In this document: piece by piece, positions 4,200 through 39,540 of the stretch
Layout: every line of letters starts with the position of its first letter
How positions within the stretch are numbered: the stretch's first letter is position 1
Source of the DNA: a virus
Strand: one strand, 5' to 3'
DNA length: 47,711 nucleotides
IMG/VR virus record: IMGVR_UViG_3300024999_000158
Coordinates: 1 to 47,711 of that record
The notes under the pieces: model-generated
The model's input: only the letters and a program-made list of their open reading frames with translations
What the model was told of the DNA's origin: nothing
Database searches by the model: none
Made by a program: the position numbers and the translations under genes

Positions 4200-5388
4200 T
4201 GGTTCAACGTCGGGAGCTCAAGCAACAGCACCAAAGTTCTGGAACGTCGCGTCCGTGTCGGATGATGAGGGAGAAATTACCCTATATGGTGACGTGGTAA
4301 GCAGCCGTCCAATAGATTTTTGGACCGGCGAAACGCTTCCAGGCTTCTATATCTCCCCCGAGGGCTTCCTCGACGATCTAGAAACAGTCAAGGGAAAAAG
4401 CAAGATCACGGTCAAACTCAACAGCGTGGGCGGGGACCTTTATACGGGCATCGCAATTCACAACGCGATCAAGGGTCTCTCAGGATCAAAGACGGTTATC
4501 GTCGAAGGCATCGCGGCCAGCGCAGCCAGTGTCATTATGTGCAGTGGTGACGAAGTCGTAACTTATCCCGGTAGTCTCGTTATGATCCACGGAGTAAGCG
4601 CCCCACTCTGCGACTACTACAACATCACAGATCTCAAGTTGGTGATCAAAGGATTCGACGCAGCTGAAAGGGCAATTGCCGAGATCTATGCCGCAAAGAC
4701 CGATCTCGATGTCGAAACCCTTCGTTCCATGATGACAAAGGAGACGTGGATGACGGGCAAGGAAGCGGTTGATAAGGGTTTCGCCAATAAGCTACTTGAG
4801 GGCTCTGATCCACAAATGATCATGAGCGCTGACAAGAACGTTCTGCTCGTAAATGGAATCGGGCACAACATCAAGGGTCTGCACAACATTCCTGGTGGCA
4901 TCCCGGTCAAAAGCGTTCCGCCCGCAGCGCCAAAAGACTCAGCGGCTGGAATAGAAAAAACAAATGGAGGAGGCAAAAAAAATATGGACCTGGAAGAACT
5001 CAAAAAGCAGCATCCAGAGCTCGTTGCTCAAATAGAAGCGGCGGCAAAAGGAACTGTAAACGCTGAAGCTATCGCAGCAGAGAGAACCCGTATCAAAGAC
5101 ATCGAGAGCATTGAGTCGGTGGTAGGAGATCCTCAGCTCGTTGCGGATGCTAAATACGGAGAAAAACCATGTACAGCTGCTGAACTATCCCTGAAGGCTA
5201 TGCAAAAACAGGCACAACTCGGCAAGCAGCACCTCGACAATAGTGCGAAGGACTTCAAAGCATCTGGAGCTGCTGGAATAGGTGCAGCACCAAATGCGGG
5301 GAACCAAGACGACGAACCCGACGAGGCCCAGGAAGTTAACCAGATTGTGGGCCTCTACAACAAAATAACGAGCGGAGGTAAAAAGTAA
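4168..5388 (+). CDS. Prohead protease (ClpP-type, lambda gpC-like) with C-terminal scaffold domain
   Basis: This serine protease matures the prohead by cutting the scaffold. The N-terminal half (to about residue 230) has the ClpP/SppA crotonase-like fold: NSVGGDLYTGIAIHNAI, then GIAASAASVIM carrying the predicted catalytic serine near residue 112, then MIHGVSAP with the predicted histidine. The C-terminal part from about residue 273 is helical, Glu/Lys/Ala-rich and scaffold-like. It carries its own ribosome binding site and ATG (see the nested gene at 4984). The start overlaps the portal gene and the stop overlaps the decoration gene (TAATG). Confidence 0.92.
   Translation: MVKRKTSILINGSTSGAQATAPKFWNVASVSDDEGEITLYGDVVSSRPIDFWTGETLPGFYISPEGFLDDLETVKGKSKITVKLNSVGGDLYTGIAIHNAIKGLSGSKTVIVEGIAASAASVIMCSGDEVVTYPGSLVMIHGVSAPLCDYYNITDLKLVIKGFDAAERAIAEIYAAKTDLDVETLRSMMTKETWMTGKEAVDKGFANKLLEGSDPQMIMSADKNVLLVNGIGHNIKGLHNIPGGIPVKSVPPAAPKDSAAGIEKTNGGGKKNMDLEELKKQHPELVAQIEAAAKGTVNAEAIAAERTRIKDIESIESVVGDPQLVADAKYGEKPCTAAELSLKAMQKQAQLGKQHLDNSAKDFKASGAAGIGAAPNAGNQDDEPDEAQEVNQIVGLYNKITSGGKK
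4984..5388 (+). CDS. Nested in-frame scaffold protein (lambda Nu3-like)
   Basis: An internal start inside the protease gene would give a 134-residue protein identical to its C-terminal domain. GGAGGAGG at 4966-4973, followed by an A-rich spacer and ATG at 4984, is as strong as any gene start in this region, which is unusual inside a reading frame. The product begins MDLEELKKQHPELVAQ and is charged, helical and Ala/Gln-rich with no protease motif. In lambda, Nu3 scaffold is made in the same way from the 3' part of gene C. That it is translated here is inferred from the site; the frame is certain. Confidence 0.65.
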   Translation: MDLEELKKQHPELVAQIEAAAKGTVNAEAIAAERTRIKDIESIESVVGDPQLVADAKYGEKPCTAAELSLKAMQKQAQLGKQHLDNSAKDFKASGAAGIGAAPNAGNQDDEPDEAQEVNQIVGLYNKITSGGKK

Positions 5389-8495: not shown

Positions 8496-9971
8496 GTGCC
8501 ATATAAACATGGAACACAGGGCAACATCGGCGACTCTAAAGCTGCCAGTGCAGCGCAGGCCAGCACGGTTGCGGTTTACGTCGGTACTGCTCCAATCAAT
8601 TTAGTGAGGGGTTATGCTGACGCCGGGCTTATCAATAATCCGGTGCGAGTGTCAAACATGCCTGATGCTCAGGTTCGTCTCGGATATTCTACCGACTGGG
8701 ATGCCTACACATTATGTGAAGCATTTGCAGCACATTTTGACAATACCGTGGGAAATGTAGGCCCAATCCACATTATTAATGTCTTAGACCCTGACGTCCA
8801 CAAGGAAGCACTCCCAACCACGGACACTGTAACTTTCAGCGCTGGCCGTGGAGAACTCAAGAGCGACACCGTAATAATTGACACCTTTGTGATCGCTGAC
8901 AAGGTAGAGGGTGTGGACTTCAAAATGGAGTACAACTATACCAAGGGAGCCCTTGTCATCACGTCATTGAAATCCGACGCTCAACTCACAGGAGAAGTGT
9001 CCGTCTCCTTCTCGGAAATCGACAAAACCAAGGTTGTAGCAGCTGACATAATCGGAGGCGCAACCAGTGATGGAGAATACACCGGACTGGCCTCTTTGTC
9101 TAAGCTCTACCAGAACTCGAACGCAGTGACTAATATCATTGCAGCACCAGGATGGGGCGAAACACCGAGCGTATATACTGCAATGGTTTCCGCCTCTCAG
9201 AAAATCAATGGTCACTGGGATGCCTTTGTGATTACTGACATTCCTATCATGGACGGAGTCACTGCGGTAGACACGATCACGAAGGCGAAGGCGTGGAAGG
9301 TTGAAAAAGGTTACACTTCAGAACGTTCTAAAGTATGTTGGCCAATGGGAATGGACGGCAACGGCAGGATCTTCCACCTTAGTACCATAGCGGTGGCTAC
9401 AATGTTAAGAACGGACAATAGCCACGATTCGATCCCCATGGAGAGTCCATCCAATAAGCAGATCGCAATCACGAAGCAGTATTTTGGAGCAGACTCCAAG
9501 AACCAGGGATATGACCAACAGACAGGTAACCAACTCAATGAAACCGGTATTACAACGGCAGTATATTGGGGTGGTAAATTTGTACTATGGGGGCCCCATA
9601 CTGCTGCTTTTATGTACGGAGGCGACGTGGATCCTCGTGCCATCTTCGATGTAAGCATGAGGATGCTCATGCACATTACGAACAGCTTCCAGCTTGAGTG
9701 GGGAACTACGATCGACGAACCTATGAGCACCCAACTTAAGGATACCATCGTCAATAGGGAGCAGGAAAAGCTTGACACGTTGGGCGGAATGAACGCATTG
9801 ATTGGCAACCCAGTCGTTGAATTCTTAGAGACGGCAAACCCGTTAACAAACCTTGTGAACGGTGATTTCGTCTGGAATGTAAGCGCAACGCCTACGCCTC
9901 CTCTCAAGAGCGCGTCCGCTATTGTGAGGAGGCGTAGGCAGGGCTTCGCAGCTTATTTTGGAGGTGAATAA
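8496..9971 (+). CDS. Contractile tail sheath protein
   Basis: The sheath contracts to drive the tube through the host envelope. It has 491 residues starting at GTG 8496 after AAAGAGGTGAATACGC. It shows the sheath pattern STVAVYVGTAPINLV at the N-terminus, NVGPIHIINVLDPD near residue 90, and TGITTAVYWGGKFVLWGPHTA with a C-terminal EFLETANPLTNLVNGDFVW. Residues about 108-177 are an inserted beta domain (SDTVIIDTFVIADKVEGVDFK onward) related to the inserts in the decoration protein and gpJ. Only two bases separate it from the tube gene. Confidence 0.95.
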   Translation: MPYKHGTQGNIGDSKAASAAQASTVAVYVGTAPINLVRGYADAGLINNPVRVSNMPDAQVRLGYSTDWDAYTLCEAFAAHFDNTVGNVGPIHIINVLDPDVHKEALPTTDTVTFSAGRGELKSDTVIIDTFVIADKVEGVDFKMEYNYTKGALVITSLKSDAQLTGEVSVSFSEIDKTKVVAADIIGGATSDGEYTGLASLSKLYQNSNAVTNIIAAPGWGETPSVYTAMVSASQKINGHWDAFVITDIPIMDGVTAVDTITKAKAWKVEKGYTSERSKVCWPMGMDGNGRIFHLSTIAVATMLRTDNSHDSIPMESPSNKQIAITKQYFGADSKNQGYDQQTGNQLNETGITTAVYWGGKFVLWGPHTAAFMYGGDVDPRAIFDVSMRMLMHITNSFQLEWGTTIDEPMSTQLKDTIVNREQEKLDTLGGMNALIGNPVVEFLETANPLTNLVNGDFVWNVSATPTPPLKSASAIVRRRRQGFAAYFGGE

Positions 9972-25481: not shown

Positions 25482-27869
25482 CTATTTTGCAGCGTTCCTT
25501 TCATCACCTCCTTGGCGTGTAATAGGCGCTGGAAGGTGGGTGACGAACTTGGCGTAGTTCTCGTTACACTTGATCAGGTTCAAACTGTGATAGCGCTTTA
25601 AGTTCAGTAAATCCTCTTCGGTGTATGGATATAATTCGCTCTTGAGTTCATCAAAGTTCTTTTTATCACAACCTGAAATTAACATATAGGACGCATTGGA
25701 GCTCCTGAATTCTTCGCGGATAGATTTAACCTGATTAAGATAGTGACAACTGATAATAGGCTTAAGATTAAATTTAGGGAGTTGGCTTAACTTCAGCTTG
25801 AGGAACTTCTCGGCGTTGTTCACCTGGTATAACTCGTCGATAATCAAGTTCACCTTTGTCATTTTGGATCTATCCTTGACTTGCTCCTCCCGGATCTGCA
25901 GGGCAAGCCAAATCTTTGTCATCCAATAGGTTACATAAACATCCTTTTCATTATCGGTGAGAAACATCCGTTGTGGCATCTTAATAACAATTAGCTGGTT
26001 TTTCTGCATCTCCCGCACCAGGTCAATGTTATTTTCACTACCTTTCTTCAACATAGTTTCGATGTAGGCGTTGACTTTCAGCTTTTGTAGTCTATCTACA
26101 GCGCCGGTGATTAAGTGTGTCTTGGTGCCAACTACCTTGCCTTTCTTATCTACTTCATCAAGTTCCCTCAAGTAGTCAATATACTCTTCCATGTTCTCCA
26201 TCTGCTCATTAGACACCGCATCAATAAATGCCTTGCGGACTTTATAATTCAGTAGAGTAGCAAACACATCCTTGATATTGCCATTCGACAAGAATACGAC
26301 CAAGGCAGCGCTCTCGAAATACCTGCCCATTTTCGCTGTAAAGTTTGCATCGTCAGCGTTAATGCTATCAACTAAGGTCATCAAGAGTGCTGTTTGCTCT
26401 TTAGCATTTTTGTACTGTATAAATGGGTTCGTGCTTGGCGGGACTTCGTTATACCCCAAACCTTGCAATGTCTCCCAGTTGTCACAGCGGACCTCAAGAA
26501 CTTTATCCTTAGAGAAGGCTGAAGCAATCTCATCACTCATTTGGCAGCTCCCAATGAAGTCTGGGATGATCACACATTCTCCTGCATTGATCGCATCACG
26601 AGCTATGTTTGCCAGGAACTTAGATTTTCCGGCTCTGTTAGGCCCGATGAGCACCAGTGAAAGCATTTGGTAATCAAAGTCGGTGCTCATGTAGACCTTT
26701 TGCTTATTCCCCTTGAAGGTATTTTCGCCTAGGCACATTACGCCGGTAAGGAGTTCGTCGGGCACCTCACTCTCAAGGGTCTCGATCTTCTCAATAAACT
26801 TGTGTTTTGCCAGAAGTTCGCGTCCCGGCAAGGCTAAAAAATTACTACATTCATCCACGCCCACCTTAAGCACTTCAGCGCCCTTTACTTTAGTATCCAA
26901 GTGATGGAATTTACCCTTGTATTTTCTACGCACTAGGCTATTGTCCTCGCCGATGCAATCGTAGCTTTGGGCTAGAGCCTTTGCATTGTTTCGCTGGCGT
27001 AGCTCATCTTTACTTTCGCTGAGTACGATAATTTGGGCCTTAAGTACCGTGTTTTTCCCCTTTGTTACTGTGGCATCAGACACAATCTTATGATTAGATA
27101 TACTGGATAACGTTTGCTTCAAAATCATTGCGTTATCCTTTTCATATTTGGCGATGTATTTACCATCTCCCCCAAGCACTTGGCCAACGTCATTTACTAG
27201 TCCGGACAAAAGGGAGAAGGCCAACTTGGCCAAGTACTTAGGCCCAGCTTTGTTTTTGTCCACCGGCTGCTCCATGCGCACTTTCGTGATCGTGGACCTA
27301 TACTCGCTTAGCCAACTGCGCTGGGATGTAGGGATGAAATTGTAGAATATGCCAACCTTGTCACCGTCCTCCATGATGTCCACGATATTCATGTTGCTCT
27401 CCAAGAGGTTATTGCTGCGCTTATCTACTGCTAGACTGAGACCGTCCTCTTTAGAGTATGCCAACTGGTATATAGTCGAGTCCTCGCTGAAGCCTGGCAG
27501 TTCATCCACGGGCTTAATAGTTACGCTGTCCCAAGTATCGGACATCTTTTCGCTTATGATGCTTTCATATCGGGTAGGTACTATAAAGTAAAATTCAATG
27601 CGCTTTTTCTCAATGTAAATGTAATAACCGACTTTAGGCGTCAAGGCCACGGAAAACTTGGTACCCAATACAAACTTCTTGCCCAGTACCTTGATTAACT
27701 TTTTCTGCTCAGTCTTTACGCTTTGCTGCAGGGTCTTGAAAAGTGAGCCTATAGTCTTAGCGATGTTACTAGACGTGTTATTACGGATCGCATTGTTCGG
27801 TGTGAGCCTTAAATAAACATAAGTTGGCTTTACGAACTCCACATATTCGCTCAGCTTAATTGACTTCAT
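25482..27869 (-). CDS. VirD4/HerA-like conjugation-type ATPase
   Basis: A 795-residue ATPase. Residues about 1-390 are a non-catalytic domain (VKPTYVYLRLTPNNAIRNN, KFVLGTKFSVALTPKVGYYI). Walker A is GPNRAGKSKFL near residue 412, followed by VIIPDFIGSCQMSDEIA. Walker B is VNLIIDELYQVNN near residue 686, followed by KPIISCHYLNQVKSIREEF and MLISGCDKKNFDEL, the pattern of type IV coupling proteins. No membrane helix is obvious in it, but the two genes upstream on the same strand encode membrane proteins. No relaxase is visible, so DNA mobilisation is only one possibility. Confidence 0.82.
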   Translation of the reverse strand: MKSIKLSEYVEFVKPTYVYLRLTPNNAIRNNTSSNIAKTIGSLFKTLQQSVKTEQKKLIKVLGKKFVLGTKFSVALTPKVGYYIYIEKKRIEFYFIVPTRYESIISEKMSDTWDSVTIKPVDELPGFSEDSTIYQLAYSKEDGLSLAVDKRSNNLLESNMNIVDIMEDGDKVGIFYNFIPTSQRSWLSEYRSTITKVRMEQPVDKNKAGPKYLAKLAFSLLSGLVNDVGQVLGGDGKYIAKYEKDNAMILKQTLSSISNHKIVSDATVTKGKNTVLKAQIIVLSESKDELRQRNNAKALAQSYDCIGEDNSLVRRKYKGKFHHLDTKVKGAEVLKVGVDECSNFLALPGRELLAKHKFIEKIETLESEVPDELLTGVMCLGENTFKGNKQKVYMSTDFDYQMLSLVLIGPNRAGKSKFLANIARDAINAGECVIIPDFIGSCQMSDEIASAFSKDKVLEVRCDNWETLQGLGYNEVPPSTNPFIQYKNAKEQTALLMTLVDSINADDANFTAKMGRYFESAALVVFLSNGNIKDVFATLLNYKVRKAFIDAVSNEQMENMEEYIDYLRELDEVDKKGKVVGTKTHLITGAVDRLQKLKVNAYIETMLKKGSENNIDLVREMQKNQLIVIKMPQRMFLTDNEKDVYVTYWMTKIWLALQIREEQVKDRSKMTKVNLIIDELYQVNNAEKFLKLKLSQLPKFNLKPIISCHYLNQVKSIREEFRSSNASYMLISGCDKKNFDELKSELYPYTEEDLLNLKRYHSLNLIKCNENYAKFVTHLPAPITRQGGDERNAAK

Positions 27870-27882
27870 CGCTACTTACCTC

Positions 27883-28512
27883 CTACTTCAAGGCTAAATG
27901 TGGCGCAGGATCAACAGAAGTTTTCCCGCCATCGAGACGTATTTCGAAGTGGACGTGGGGGCCCGTGCTGCGCCCTGTGTTACCACTTAATGCTATTACT
28001 GCGCCCTGCCATACCGATTGACCAACCGTAACTAGGACTTGACTGTTGTGGGCGTACATTGTCTGTGTTCCATCGGGGTGATCAACCTCCACTACGTTGC
28101 CGACTATGTTCCCTTTGTACCCGGCGAAGCATATCGTACCAGCTTTGCTCGCTTGCACCTTAGTACCTTCCGGTACCGCGAAATCTATACCATAGTGAAA
28201 ACCATCGGGAGAGGAAGGACGTGGGCCAAAGGGGCTAGATACTGATCCAACAACCGGCGCGATATATTCGCCTTGTCTTACAAGTTCTCCGGTGTCATTT
28301 ACATCAATGAAGATATTAAGAAGAATATAACCAACCAGTGCTATGCCTACCCATCTAATCCCGGGCTTAAAGCCTCCGACGTATAAGAGAATTAATGATG
28401 CGCAACCAAGCAAGACGACAACATGCGCGTAAGCAAGGAATAAAACTGGCTTAGTCATGATCATGGTTACAGCGGCTAATATAACTCCACCTTTTAGCGC
28501 TGCTAAGATCAT
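27883..28512 (-). CDS. Membrane-anchored M23 (LytM) endopeptidase
   Basis: 209 residues. The first 75 contain about three membrane helices (GGVILAAVTMIMTKPVLFLAY, VVVLLGCASLILLYV, WVGIALVGYILLNIFI). Residues about 85-205 form an M23 metallopeptidase with intact ligands: HYGIDFAV, MYAHNSQ and GPHVHFEIR. It would cut peptidoglycan cross-bridges outside the membrane. Conjugation systems of Gram-positive bacteria pair such hydrolases with a coupling ATPase. It overlaps the upstream gene by four bases and lies 13 bases from the ATPase. Confidence 0.88.
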   Translation of the reverse strand: MILAALKGGVILAAVTMIMTKPVLFLAYAHVVVLLGCASLILLYVGGFKPGIRWVGIALVGYILLNIFIDVNDTGELVRQGEYIAPVVGSVSSPFGPRPSSPDGFHYGIDFAVPEGTKVQASKAGTICFAGYKGNIVGNVVEVDHPDGTQTMYAHNSQVLVTVGQSVWQGAVIALSGNTGRSTGPHVHFEIRLDGGKTSVDPAPHLALK

Positions 28513-28829
28513 GATTTAAACAGCCCTTCTATTTGGTCCAGTGCCTGGGGGAGGGCAAGCATAGCGCCAAAGCATATGAGGTAACCAATAAACTGGTGTT
28601 TTGCTTTTTCATAGTCCCCATCTAAGACAGACTGGATAGAGTTAACGGACCCTTTACCCAAAATTACATATTTACCTACACTGACAATCTTCCAATAAAT
28701 ACTCATGCCCTTGTCATCCAAACTCGAGGCTAAAGCCACGGTAGGGGATAGGAGCATAGCGGCCGCCGTAATTCCTACTTGAAAATAGAAGCTTTTGTGC
28801 TTGCGGAAATGGTTGGTTAATCTTAACAT
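28509..28829 (-). CDS. Small two-helix membrane protein, pilin-like layout
   Basis: 106 residues with a signal-like first helix (GITAAAMLLSPTVALASS, residues about 19-36, a possible cleavage after ALA) and a second helix near residue 82-97 (FIGYLICFGAMLALPQAL). Small proteins with a signal and one or two helices are the usual form of VirB2/TrbC-like subunits next to conjugation ATPases. The resemblance is in layout only. AAAAAGGAGGTATTCCGCAA precedes the ATG. Confidence 0.7.
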   Translation of the reverse strand: MLRLTNHFRKHKSFYFQVGITAAAMLLSPTVALASSLDDKGMSIYWKIVSVGKYVILGKGSVNSIQSVLDGDYEKAKHQFIGYLICFGAMLALPQALDQIEGLFKS

Positions 28830-34315: not shown

Positions 34316-34383
34316 CGATATCACCTCCTCCCTGATCGATATTGAAAGTCCGAACAACTTACAATTCGACACGGAAGAGGGGA
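34316..34383. repeat. Shared divergent leader, copy 3
   Basis: Minus strand: CCTCTTCCGTGTCGAATTGT, then AAGTTGTTCGGACT, an ATATCGAT box and GGGAGGAGGTGAT. It is closest to copy 1. The halves TCGA-(AT)-TTG and CAATTCGA form a loose dyad in both. Confidence 0.7.
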
Positions 34384-34633: not shown

Positions 34634-34940
34634 TGTCGTATCAACGCAGAGCTCCCCAGGACAATATTTTTAAATTATTTGCCTACATCATGGAGATAGT
34701 CGGTAGAGACACGAAGGGCATAAGCGATTTTGGAGAGATTCTTATGTCTAGGTTCAAAATATCCTTTTAGCCAACGCTTGACGGTAATCGGTGAGACATT
34801 TGTCTGGTGGGACAAATCTACTACACCCATACCGAGCTGATCCATTGCGGATGCAAGCCGTGAGGAGAAAACGGAAGGGAAAAAGAAAAAAAGAAAGCAC
34901 ATCACTCCTTGCGCCTGGGGAGCTCTGCGTTGATACGACA
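34634..34940. mobile_element. Inverted-repeat HTH cassette 1 (307 bp)
   Basis: A perfect 27-bp inverted repeat (34634-34660 and 34914-34940) encloses 253 bases that are almost filled by one minus-strand HTH gene. The outer part of the arm is GTCGTATCAA preceded by T. Cassette 2 at 35005-35310 has the same plan, nearly the same length and arms that differ at six positions, each change being matched in the partner arm. It may be a mobile cassette, an invertible segment or a structured transcript; the sequence alone does not decide. Confidence 0.65.
34675..34902 (-). CDS. HTH protein of inverted-repeat cassette 1
   Basis: 75 residues. Residues about 15-75 are an XRE-type HTH domain: SRLASAMDQLGMGVVDLSHQ, TNVSPITVKRWLKGYFEPRH and LSKIAYALRVSTDYL. 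It is preceded by an odd hydrophobic start (MCFLFFFFPSVF) encoded by a pyrimidine-rich tract. AAGGAG lies only two bases before ATG 34902, so the true start could differ. It is a paralogue of the gene at 35041. Confidence 0.72.
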   Translation of the reverse strand: MCFLFFFFPSVFSSRLASAMDQLGMGVVDLSHQTNVSPITVKRWLKGYFEPRHKNLSKIAYALRVSTDYLHDVGK

Positions 34941-35004
34941 GGAATCGTTATTGATACCACTTCGACATGATAAGTAAAAATCCTATAAGAGAGGAGGGCG
35001 TGAA

Positions 35005-35310
35005 GGTCGTATCAAGGCAGAACCCTCCGGGTTATTTTAATTAATCTATTCTGCCTATGAGATAGTCGCTAGAGACATTGAGCGCGGCTGAAATACGAGA
35101 TAAATTTCGGTGTCTTGGCTCAAATCTTCCATTCAGCCAGCGTTTTACGGTAGAAGGCGAAACCTGGGTCATCCTGGATAGGAGATATACGCCTATACTG
35201 CGTTTTTCCATTGCGAGTGCTAGCCGCACGGAAAAATCATCGAAGAAGAAAAAGAAGAAGAAGATGCATCACATTCCTTTGTGCCCGGAGGGTTCTGCCT
35301 TGATACGACC
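35005..35310. mobile_element. Inverted-repeat HTH cassette 2 (306 bp)
   Basis: A perfect 27-bp inverted repeat (35005-35031 and 35284-35310) encloses 252 bases with a minus-strand HTH gene. The arms contain GTCGTATCAAGGCAGA and end in CCTCCGGG. A rightward gene starts about 60 bases after the right arm. Sixty-four bases separate it from cassette 1. Confidence 0.65.
35041..35229 (-). CDS. HTH protein of inverted-repeat cassette 2, start disrupted
   Basis: 62 residues: RLALAMEKRSIGVYLLSRMT, QVSPSTVKRWLNGRFEPRH and LSRISAALNVSSDYLIG, about 60% similar to the cassette 1 protein by eye. GTG 35229 is the first usable start but has no binding site. The AAAGGA-ATG equivalent of cassette 1 lies 43 bases before the conserved CGG codon instead of 42, one base out of frame, across a CTT/T pyrimidine tract. 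Confidence 0.6.
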   Translation of the reverse strand: MRLALAMEKRSIGVYLLSRMTQVSPSTVKRWLNGRFEPRHRNLSRISAALNVSSDYLIGRID

Positions 35311-35367
35311 CAGGATGATATGTTCGACAATAACCCTAATTTTTCCTGTAAAAGTGAGGTGATACCT

Positions 35368-37608: not shown

Positions 37609-39540
37609 ATGCTTATTAAAAAAGAATTGGATCAAATTGTTGTTCAAAAATGTCCTGACCTCCCCAAGAAGGGCAAGGGGTATGACAAGTATGTTGCAGC
37701 GGTCCAGGTATTAAAGCTAAAAAAGTCCGGGAAAATGCTCATCATTGATGTTTTCAAACGAAAGGATTCAACCCTACAGCTCCGCTTTTTCTCTGACGGT
37801 GTTTCGTTCCTGGTTTGTAAGGAATGGCCGGTCGGGAAATGGGAGAAAAGGCTGCCGGGTAATTTGTTGGATAATTTATATGCTGACAATATTAATGCCG
37901 CTGAAAATGATGTAAAAAAAGCTCATGAAATCTTAAAAAGCAGACAAAAATCATGGCACCACATGTCCGGGATAAAAAATGAAATGGACTCCTTTGTCAG
38001 CGCAATATATGAACGAAAGCAAGAGAAGGCAATGGATAGCAAGTATTCCAAGATGGAGTCGCATTTCGGGATGTTCCCTGCTTATCCGGATGACCTGGCC
38101 GAATACTGCGAGATTAACGTATTTGGGTACACATATATTTTCTTGAGTAAAATTCAGAATGGAGCAAGAGAAGCGGTATGCGGCCATTGTGGGCACAAAT
38201 TTCCCGTAAGTAAAGATATTAAACCTGGGCAAGACGGAATATGCCAAGGATGCAACATGAATGCCAGATATCGCGCCACGTGGACCAGCGGCCGCAGTGA
38301 AGACAAGGGCAAGATCTGTATAGCCCATAAAGTCCAAGACCAGCTGCTGATCCGCTGGACAAATATAATCCGCGCGTTTGACGGCGTGAAACATAGATAT
38401 CATTTTTACGACTATTACAGAAATCTGTATCTTCATTTTCCCAAGGGACCAACAATCTACGCTTACGACTACAAGTCAATGATAGGTTGGGGAGAGAGAT
38501 GGTTCCGCCAAAAGAACGGAAACACTCACTATGGGAAATCATTCGTTTACACAAATAATCTGAAAGAGGTTTTTGGTGATAATTACTACCACGTTGACTT
38601 GGAAGCGGGACTGAAAAATTCCAGTAAACTGTCATTTTCATCCTTACTTAACAACCTTAAGAACATTCCAGCTGCGGAATACCTTTTCAAAATGGGGATG
38701 TCGGCGCTTGCGGCTGGCATGGCAAAGATTGAATTTGGCAAGGGAGCAGGGTTTATGGAGGTCCTTGGGGTCAGTAAACAGTATCTCCCGCTGTACCAGA
38801 AATATAATGTTAGTCCCCTTGAACACATGGTCCTAAAAGCGTCAAAAACATGGGTGAGTGAATCCAGTTTTGAAAAACTTCGCTTACTGGCACCTGAGTA
38901 CGTAGATTTTGAAGATATCGTTGATATCCTTAAAACCATGTCGTTTGAGCGCTTTGTAAACTATTTTTCAAGGCAAAAGGCGCTGATCGAAAAGAAAAAG
39001 CTTCAATACGTTATAACGCTCTATAAGGATTATGTAAGCATGTCCGAATCGCTAAAAGTGGACATGTCAAGGAAATCCATCCGTTTCCCCCGGAATATCA
39101 AAGAGGCGCACGACTTGCTCCTTCCTCGTTTTAACCAAGTGAAGCACCAGGTGGATGATAAAAAATTCAAACAGGCCGTGAAGGGGCTCTATTCAGGAAT
39201 GAAGGAATATGCAAATGAAGATTATTGTATCGTATTCCCAGCCCTACGAAGCGATCTTATTACAGAGGGTCAAGCCTTAAACCATTGTGTTGGTGCGGAT
39301 AGGTACTACCAAAACCATATTGCCGGAACGAGGATGATATTTTTTGTCCGACAGGCAAGGGATCCGGAGAAGCCGTTCATTACGTCGGAAATCGATATGA
39401 AAGAGTTGAAGATACTGCAGTTATATGGATTCGGCGATCGTCCCGCGCCCCCTGAAGTGCGAAAGTTCGCAAATGAATTCTTAAGAACATTAAAGCCGAT
39501 CCGTGAGGAAAATAGGGTCCCAGTGACAGTCCCAGCATAA
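37609..39540 (+). CDS. PcfJ-like protein
   Basis: 643 residues from ATG 37609 behind GGGAGGCGGAACG. A zinc knuckle pair (AVCGHCGHK, GICQGCNMNARY) lies near residues 190-220. The family signature occurs in the C-terminal third: SDLITEGQALNHCVGADRYY, AGTRMIFFVRQARDPEKPF and an ELKILQLYG strand. PcfJ is encoded on conjugative plasmids and in phage early regions. With PcfK it may be a nucleic-acid-handling pair, but its activity is unknown. Confidence 0.87.
   Translation: MLIKKELDQIVVQKCPDLPKKGKGYDKYVAAVQVLKLKKSGKMLIIDVFKRKDSTLQLRFFSDGVSFLVCKEWPVGKWEKRLPGNLLDNLYADNINAAENDVKKAHEILKSRQKSWHHMSGIKNEMDSFVSAIYERKQEKAMDSKYSKMESHFGMFPAYPDDLAEYCEINVFGYTYIFLSKIQNGAREAVCGHCGHKFPVSKDIKPGQDGICQGCNMNARYRATWTSGRSEDKGKICIAHKVQDQLLIRWTNIIRAFDGVKHRYHFYDYYRNLYLHFPKGPTIYAYDYKSMIGWGERWFRQKNGNTHYGKSFVYTNNLKEVFGDNYYHVDLEAGLKNSSKLSFSSLLNNLKNIPAAEYLFKMGMSALAAGMAKIEFGKGAGFMEVLGVSKQYLPLYQKYNVSPLEHMVLKASKTWVSESSFEKLRLLAPEYVDFEDIVDILKTMSFERFVNYFSRQKALIEKKKLQYVITLYKDYVSMSESLKVDMSRKSIRFPRNIKEAHDLLLPRFNQVKHQVDDKKFKQAVKGLYSGMKEYANEDYCIVFPALRSDLITEGQALNHCVGADRYYQNHIAGTRMIFFVRQARDPEKPFITSEIDMKELKILQLYGFGDRPAPPEVRKFANEFLRTLKPIREENRVPVTVPA

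Follow-up and report, generated by a model that had tools for sequence, protein, structure and literature searches.

Two neighbouring cassettes in the window, that is, the whole 47,711-nucleotide stretch of viral DNA analysed here, were found to belong to a family of 22 elements with the same layout, in which a short HTH gene is enclosed by inverted repeats whose two arms, as judged by comparing the family members, evolve together without absolute fidelity. The best explanation, to which we assign about an even chance, is a stably inherited phage regulator gene whose mRNA ends would pair with each other and limit its expression. If so, 5'-3' end pairing, which in bacterial mRNAs has been a matter of few, individually studied cases, would here be an inherited trait built into an entire gene family. 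Because the arms covary in nature, swapping them would put this hypothesis to a direct test in prophages of named Paenibacillus strains.

Anatomy of the cassettes and distribution of the family

The window is the record of a 47.7-kb temperate siphovirus with terminase, portal, tape measure, integrase, repressor and replication genes. Our analysis confirmed the twin tandem units of about 306 bp reported by the initial annotation, in each of which perfect 27-bp inverted repeats enclose a single minus-strand HTH gene. The units measure 307 bp (34634-34940) and 306 bp (35005-35310), and their arms, each of 27 nt, are 100% complementary. Equally borne out was the claim that the arms of the two cassettes differ at six of 27 positions, with every difference matched in the partner arm. 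In the sense of the HTH gene (minus strand) the right repeat of each unit is the 5' arm (34914-34940 in cassette 1, 35284-35310 in cassette 2) and the left repeat the 3' arm (34634-34660, perfect complement of 34914-34940, and 35005-35031, respectively). On the same strand, cassette 1 carries a Shine-Dalgarno sequence AAGGAG (34905-34910, read from the sequence) 3 nt inside the 5' arm, a pyrimidine tract (34879-34899) and the HTH gene (P0001, XRE/P22 C2-like; 34675-34905), with the HTH domain beginning at about residue 13; the HTH frame of cassette 2 spans 35041-35268. Across the 47.7-kb window, the cassette arms are the only perfect inverted repeats of at least 18 nt whose partners lie no more than 3 kb apart; the only other inverted pair found was a 91% hairpin at 9890-9939.

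A search for further copies, run as an arm-motif scan of viral contigs and then of GTDB genomes, established that the pair in the window is not a one-off. Elements were found in Paenibacillaceae prophages, in viral contigs and in a related 46.8-kb phage, with the arm consensus GTCGTATCAAGGCAGAACCCTCCGGG, and all named host records are of the soil bacterium Paenibacillus. It was the arm pattern that revealed the family; a protein-only search of viral contigs yielded few relatives. The common layout runs from a 5' arm (26 nt) over 3-7 nt to the Shine-Dalgarno sequence, TGATG, a pyrimidine tract, the HTH domain and the stop codon, followed after 7-15 nt by the 3' arm. Among 400 sampled Paenibacillaceae genomes 13 matched the arm, 12 of them with an element, always one per host genome, and one (G219) with a lone arm only. 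Twin elements, always in tandem, are confined to two related phages, that of the window and its 46.8-kb relative (IMGVR_UViG_3300033982_000163). The relative has both units in a block 91% identical to the window, and in its second unit two more arm bases have changed, from AA to GG, a change matched between the arms. The lone arm of G219 (L152, about 1501-1522) is partial, with 22 contiguous bases and 24 of 26 positions matching, and lies after an excisionase-like gene, directly before a Shine-Dalgarno sequence and another ORF; it is probably a deletion scar.

Inverted repeats and this HTH clade go together as far as their sequences tell, since the HTH profile, applied to 24 genomes at E<1e-12, matched only arm-bearing genomes, 11 of 12, the twelfth being G219 with its solo arm. 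At 50 more distant HTH loci in viral contigs, flanking repeats were not above shuffled controls, and nearly all of these genes share 45% identity or less over the domain. Homologues devoid of repeats, which the initial annotation had regarded as damaging to its reading, were encountered only beyond the limits of the family, among HTH genes of 45% identity or less. INPHARED phages gave no DNA match and only distant HTH proteins, Rfam 15 gave no match up to E=1, and no description of such elements was found in the open-access papers searched, which represent only part of the literature.

Each cassette is predicted to encode a Cro/C1-type DNA-binding protein of 60-75 aa. Pfam HTH_3 was detected in both units (E 2.9e-6 and 1.6e-8) with scores of 27.6 and 34.9 bits, above the Pfam gathering cut-off of 23, and the nearest PDB match of the HTH profile was the P22 C2 repressor (2r1j/3jxb, E 5e-8). 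With a mean pS of 0.67 and pN of 0.24, a pattern displayed to the same degree by no other frame, sequence comparison indicates purifying selection on the HTH protein and synonymous sites near saturation. A plus-strand ORF across the element was considered and discarded: it is open in some members, but its ends and frames differ, and its pN/pS of 0.49 results from overlap with the HTH frame. Like phage repressors of the Cro/C1 type such as P22 C2, the cassette protein has an HTH domain and is encoded opposite the early genes of a temperate phage; unlike them, it is encoded apart from the cI and cro genes that the phage also has, terminates immediately behind the HTH domain, has an N-terminus encoded by a poly-pyrimidine tract and is bracketed by inverted repeats. 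HTH domains appear to have been exchanged between conserved arms and leaders. One locus, L148, is a mosaic with a leader like that of L149 and an HTH domain like that of L151. In another member (L131) a deletion frameshifts the HTH gene, yet the arms still match.

Brevibacillus phages, which infect a related host, also have both duplicated P22 C2-like HTH genes and inverted repeats, but the two lie apart (PMC4909266). Their repeats surround a larger putative transposon region, are not tied to HTH genes and have no compensated arms described (PMC4909266).

Covariation of the arms and proposed pairing of the transcript ends

That pairing between the arms, or conversion between them, has been maintained during drift was proposed from the two cassettes of the window and is now strongly supported by 22 family members. 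Comparison of 13 distinct arm pairs revealed two-sided changes at 10 of 26 pairs, and 98.5% of cells were paired, a value reached by none of 500 shuffles and approached by no slid register. Fourteen arm changes were matched, against about 0.5 expected if the arms changed independently. Uncompensated arm differences, named beforehand as evidence against the proposal, do occur in part: nine of the 23 changes are unmatched, and compensation, though strong, is thus not absolute. Mean divergence was 0.094 in the arms versus 0.539 at HTH third codon positions, and 11 of the 26 arm pairs never vary. The outer 8 bp, GTCGTATC, are nearly invariant across arms, beyond the needs of pairing alone, which would allow for the action of a DNA- or RNA-binding factor. 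A strand-specific RNA signal was sought in the unmatched transitions and rejected, as these give G.U pairs in the sense RNA in four cases and in the antisense RNA in four, with no visible preference. Taken as a covariation test for 5'-3' UTR pairing, the family has complementary untranslated ends whose pairing is conserved.

The initial annotation had left three options, a minimal mobile cassette, an invertible regulatory segment and a transcript closed by a stem. Of these, the closed transcript gives the best fit, as the arms tightly bracket one gene; the part of this option that concerns action as RNA, affecting translation or decay, is what we infer. With the arms hugging the ribosome site and the stop codon, the natural unit would be the transcript, and the complete mRNA, having one arm just before the Shine-Dalgarno sequence and the other just after the stop, would close into a 26-bp stem. 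The predicted pairing probability of this closing stem was 0.77-1.0 in all 21 elements folded, and fold z-scores were -6.1 and -8.1. According to the proposed mechanism, the 5' and 3' untranslated ends of the complete mRNA would zip up directly upstream of the Shine-Dalgarno sequence, so that the finished mRNA would be closed at its ribosome-loading edge and would offer a long duplex to RNase III; translation would be possible mainly before the 3' arm is made. Computed accessibility of the Shine-Dalgarno sequence with versus without the 3' arm gave no consistent switch. Two further candidates were rejected, namely a switch in which the 5' arm sequesters the Shine-Dalgarno sequence, predicted to be strong only in the clade of L072 and not general, and a leader peptide running through the arm, whose frame relative to the arm differs between loci.

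The closest parallels are two systems known in bacteria. In Staphylococcus aureus, pairing between the 5' UTR and 3' UTR of icaR mRNA blocks ribosome loading and the duplex is cut by RNase III; the partner of the Shine-Dalgarno region is a short UCCCCUG motif, and the 3' UTR bridged by the pairing is long (PMC3868564). As in icaR, the cassettes would yield a repressor-type mRNA in Bacillota with complementary ends next to the ribosome-binding site; unlike in icaR, the complementarity extends over 26 bp, perfect or nearly so, lies immediately outside the gene, belongs to a phage and is known from sequence. The stem may, by analogy with icaR, keep the regulator low. In hok-type mRNAs of type I toxin-antitoxin systems the 3' end folds back and closes the full-length mRNA (via PMC3868564). 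Closure of the full-length mRNA from 5' to 3' (predicted here) and translation hinging on the presence of the 3' end would be shared with hok, but the predicted cassette product is a DNA-binding protein and that of hok a membrane toxin, no separate antitoxin RNA was identified for the cassettes, and their pairing is far longer and simpler. The cassette transcript would resemble the 5'-3' pairing of icaR and hok carried to an extreme.

Gene conversion or template switching could also have homogenised the arms, one of them (e.g. the 5' arm, as operator or leader) being selected and the other copied, and would yield matched changes without selection on pairing. Within each phage both arms carry the same sequence, and half-way arm states exist in both directions (L040 and G433), as conversion would have it. 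Against this, four lineages (L072, L085, L148 and L150) keep the same two unmatched arm positions, with flanks only 72-85% identical and synonymous sites of the HTH gene saturated; the persistence of these mismatches despite diverged flanks implies that arm homogenisation is not frequent. Conversion by crossover should in addition leave inverted copies, of which none was seen in the loci examined, and we consider this account unlikely.

The arms might instead be two DNA sites for one protein, either the HTH protein itself or another regulator, serving autoregulation with looping, in which case they would match because both must fit the same protein. The near invariance of the outer 8 bp, the far stronger conservation of arm sequence than of the gene and the place of the 5' arm, about where an operator downstream of the start site would be, are compatible with this proposal. 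It would, however, not be expected to match all 26 positions rather than a subset, nor to make ten variable positions co-vary, as free operator positions would drift separately; moreover, the putative recognition-helix residues (SPxTVxRW) vary while the arms stay at consensus. We rate it as improbable.

A minimal mobile cassette, with terminal inverted repeats on which a transposase or recombinase provided in trans would act, would account for defined ends and conserved termini, for the twin copies in the window and its relative and for a 91% identical block amid mosaic surroundings in these two phages. This option of the initial annotation found no support and is very improbable: there is a single element per host genome, no target duplications were found in element flanks, the early-region location is conserved, and the edges of the one empty site found, in G170, are not the arms. 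Two flanking genes abut at that site, where sequence on both sides is missing together with the element, about 165 bp outside the 5' arm and less than that outside the 3' arm. With the gap extending past them, the arms are not the element edges, and the G170 gap appears to be an ordinary mosaic exchange, not an arm-bounded transposition. Inversion of a regulatory segment by a site-specific recombinase, which might be suggested by a promoter-proximal gene lying between perfect inverted repeats of about 26 bp, is contradicted by the fixed orientation, with the HTH gene antisense to early genes in every locus examined, by arms without internal dyad and by the lack of a dedicated invertase next to the elements, and we regard it as scarcely credible.

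Reading frame of the HTH gene

Apart from the proposed pairing of its mRNA ends, the regulator gene has an unusual beginning in most members. The TGATG start is conserved in all but one element, with the start codons of the window at 34900-34902 (cassette 1) and 35267-35269 (cassette 2), and of the 21 elements tabulated, 19 have their HTH frame shifted by one base (+1) against the start codon adjacent to the Shine-Dalgarno sequence. Frame 0 is mostly a short Leu/Phe leader (MRLLLFLLF-type) closed by a stop codon, in most cases UGA; at this place the HTH frame has Asp, Glu or Asn and runs on. In cassette 1 the ATG is in the HTH frame because its tract is one base shorter than that of the ortholog G1 in the related phage. 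In cassette 2 the HTH frame announced by the initial annotation is present but has no ATG, GTG or TTG at its natural beginning, and the listed ORF of 62 aa (P0002) is only the part from an internal GTG at 35229; the leader ORF, MHLLLLFLLR-stop (ATG CAT CTT ... CGA TGA, 35237-35269, minus strand), is one base off the HTH frame. A further in-frame ATG or GTG exists in some members (the L072 clade, L130 and L049).

The sequences make it possible that the HTH protein is started by programmed +1 frameshifting, non-canonical initiation or tract-length switching. We tentatively entertain, at well below an even chance, that two brakes are stacked, namely a zipped mRNA with a covarying 26-bp stem and an HTH frame reached only indirectly, by a +1 shift (ATG ... 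CUU/UUU UGA), a non-canonical codon or a tract change. The off-frame start of most members poses a testable puzzle of how phages keep a regulator low.

Early-region setting and other features of the phage

The HTH genes of the cassettes are antisense to the early operon, and in most annotated loci the element lies between repressor (cI), cro or excisionase-like genes and replication/recombination genes, with an outward promoter or promoter-like region beside the 5' arm. Both window cassettes have, on the side of the 5' arm, an outward promoter-like site of the type TTCGACA-N16/17-CCTRT. On the plus strand these are TTCGACA-N16-CCTATAAG (34961-34990), divergent from cassette 1, and TTCGACA-N17-CCTGTAAA (35323-35352), divergent from cassette 2, both identified by consensus match only. 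The TGTCGAA motif also adjoins G1, G2, L040, L100, L130, L153 and L154; another subgroup has TGCTAAA(A/C)T repeats on the 5'-arm side and not TGTCGAA. The simplest biological role suggested by this arrangement would be that of a divergent HTH regulator controlling the outward promoter-like site. Some members of the family have possible -10 elements shortly before the 5' arm; the sense promoter, which is conjectural, differs between subgroups.

TTCGACA sites are clustered on the plus strand of the window (33338, 34365, 34961 and 35323), and those at 34365, 34961 and 35323 have CCTRT 16-17 bases on; such promoter-like elements recur in the early region and were met upstream of cassettes in other phages too. 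Direct repeats of the type GTTCCAGTACANTGTT, possible operators, were seen upstream of the element in L170 (about 4450-4600) and in the 3' flank of L053.

Elsewhere in the window, a three-gene block on the minus strand (25482-28829) between structural and lysogeny genes encodes a large protein, whose only match, weak and below cut-off, is to a domain of T4SS coupling proteins, together with an M23 peptidase and a small hydrophobic protein; from its sequence it looks like a conjugation-type module inside the phage. The early region also encodes, on the plus strand (37609-39540), a PcfJ-like protein (Pfam PF14284, E 3e-28), of a family named from conjugative plasmids.
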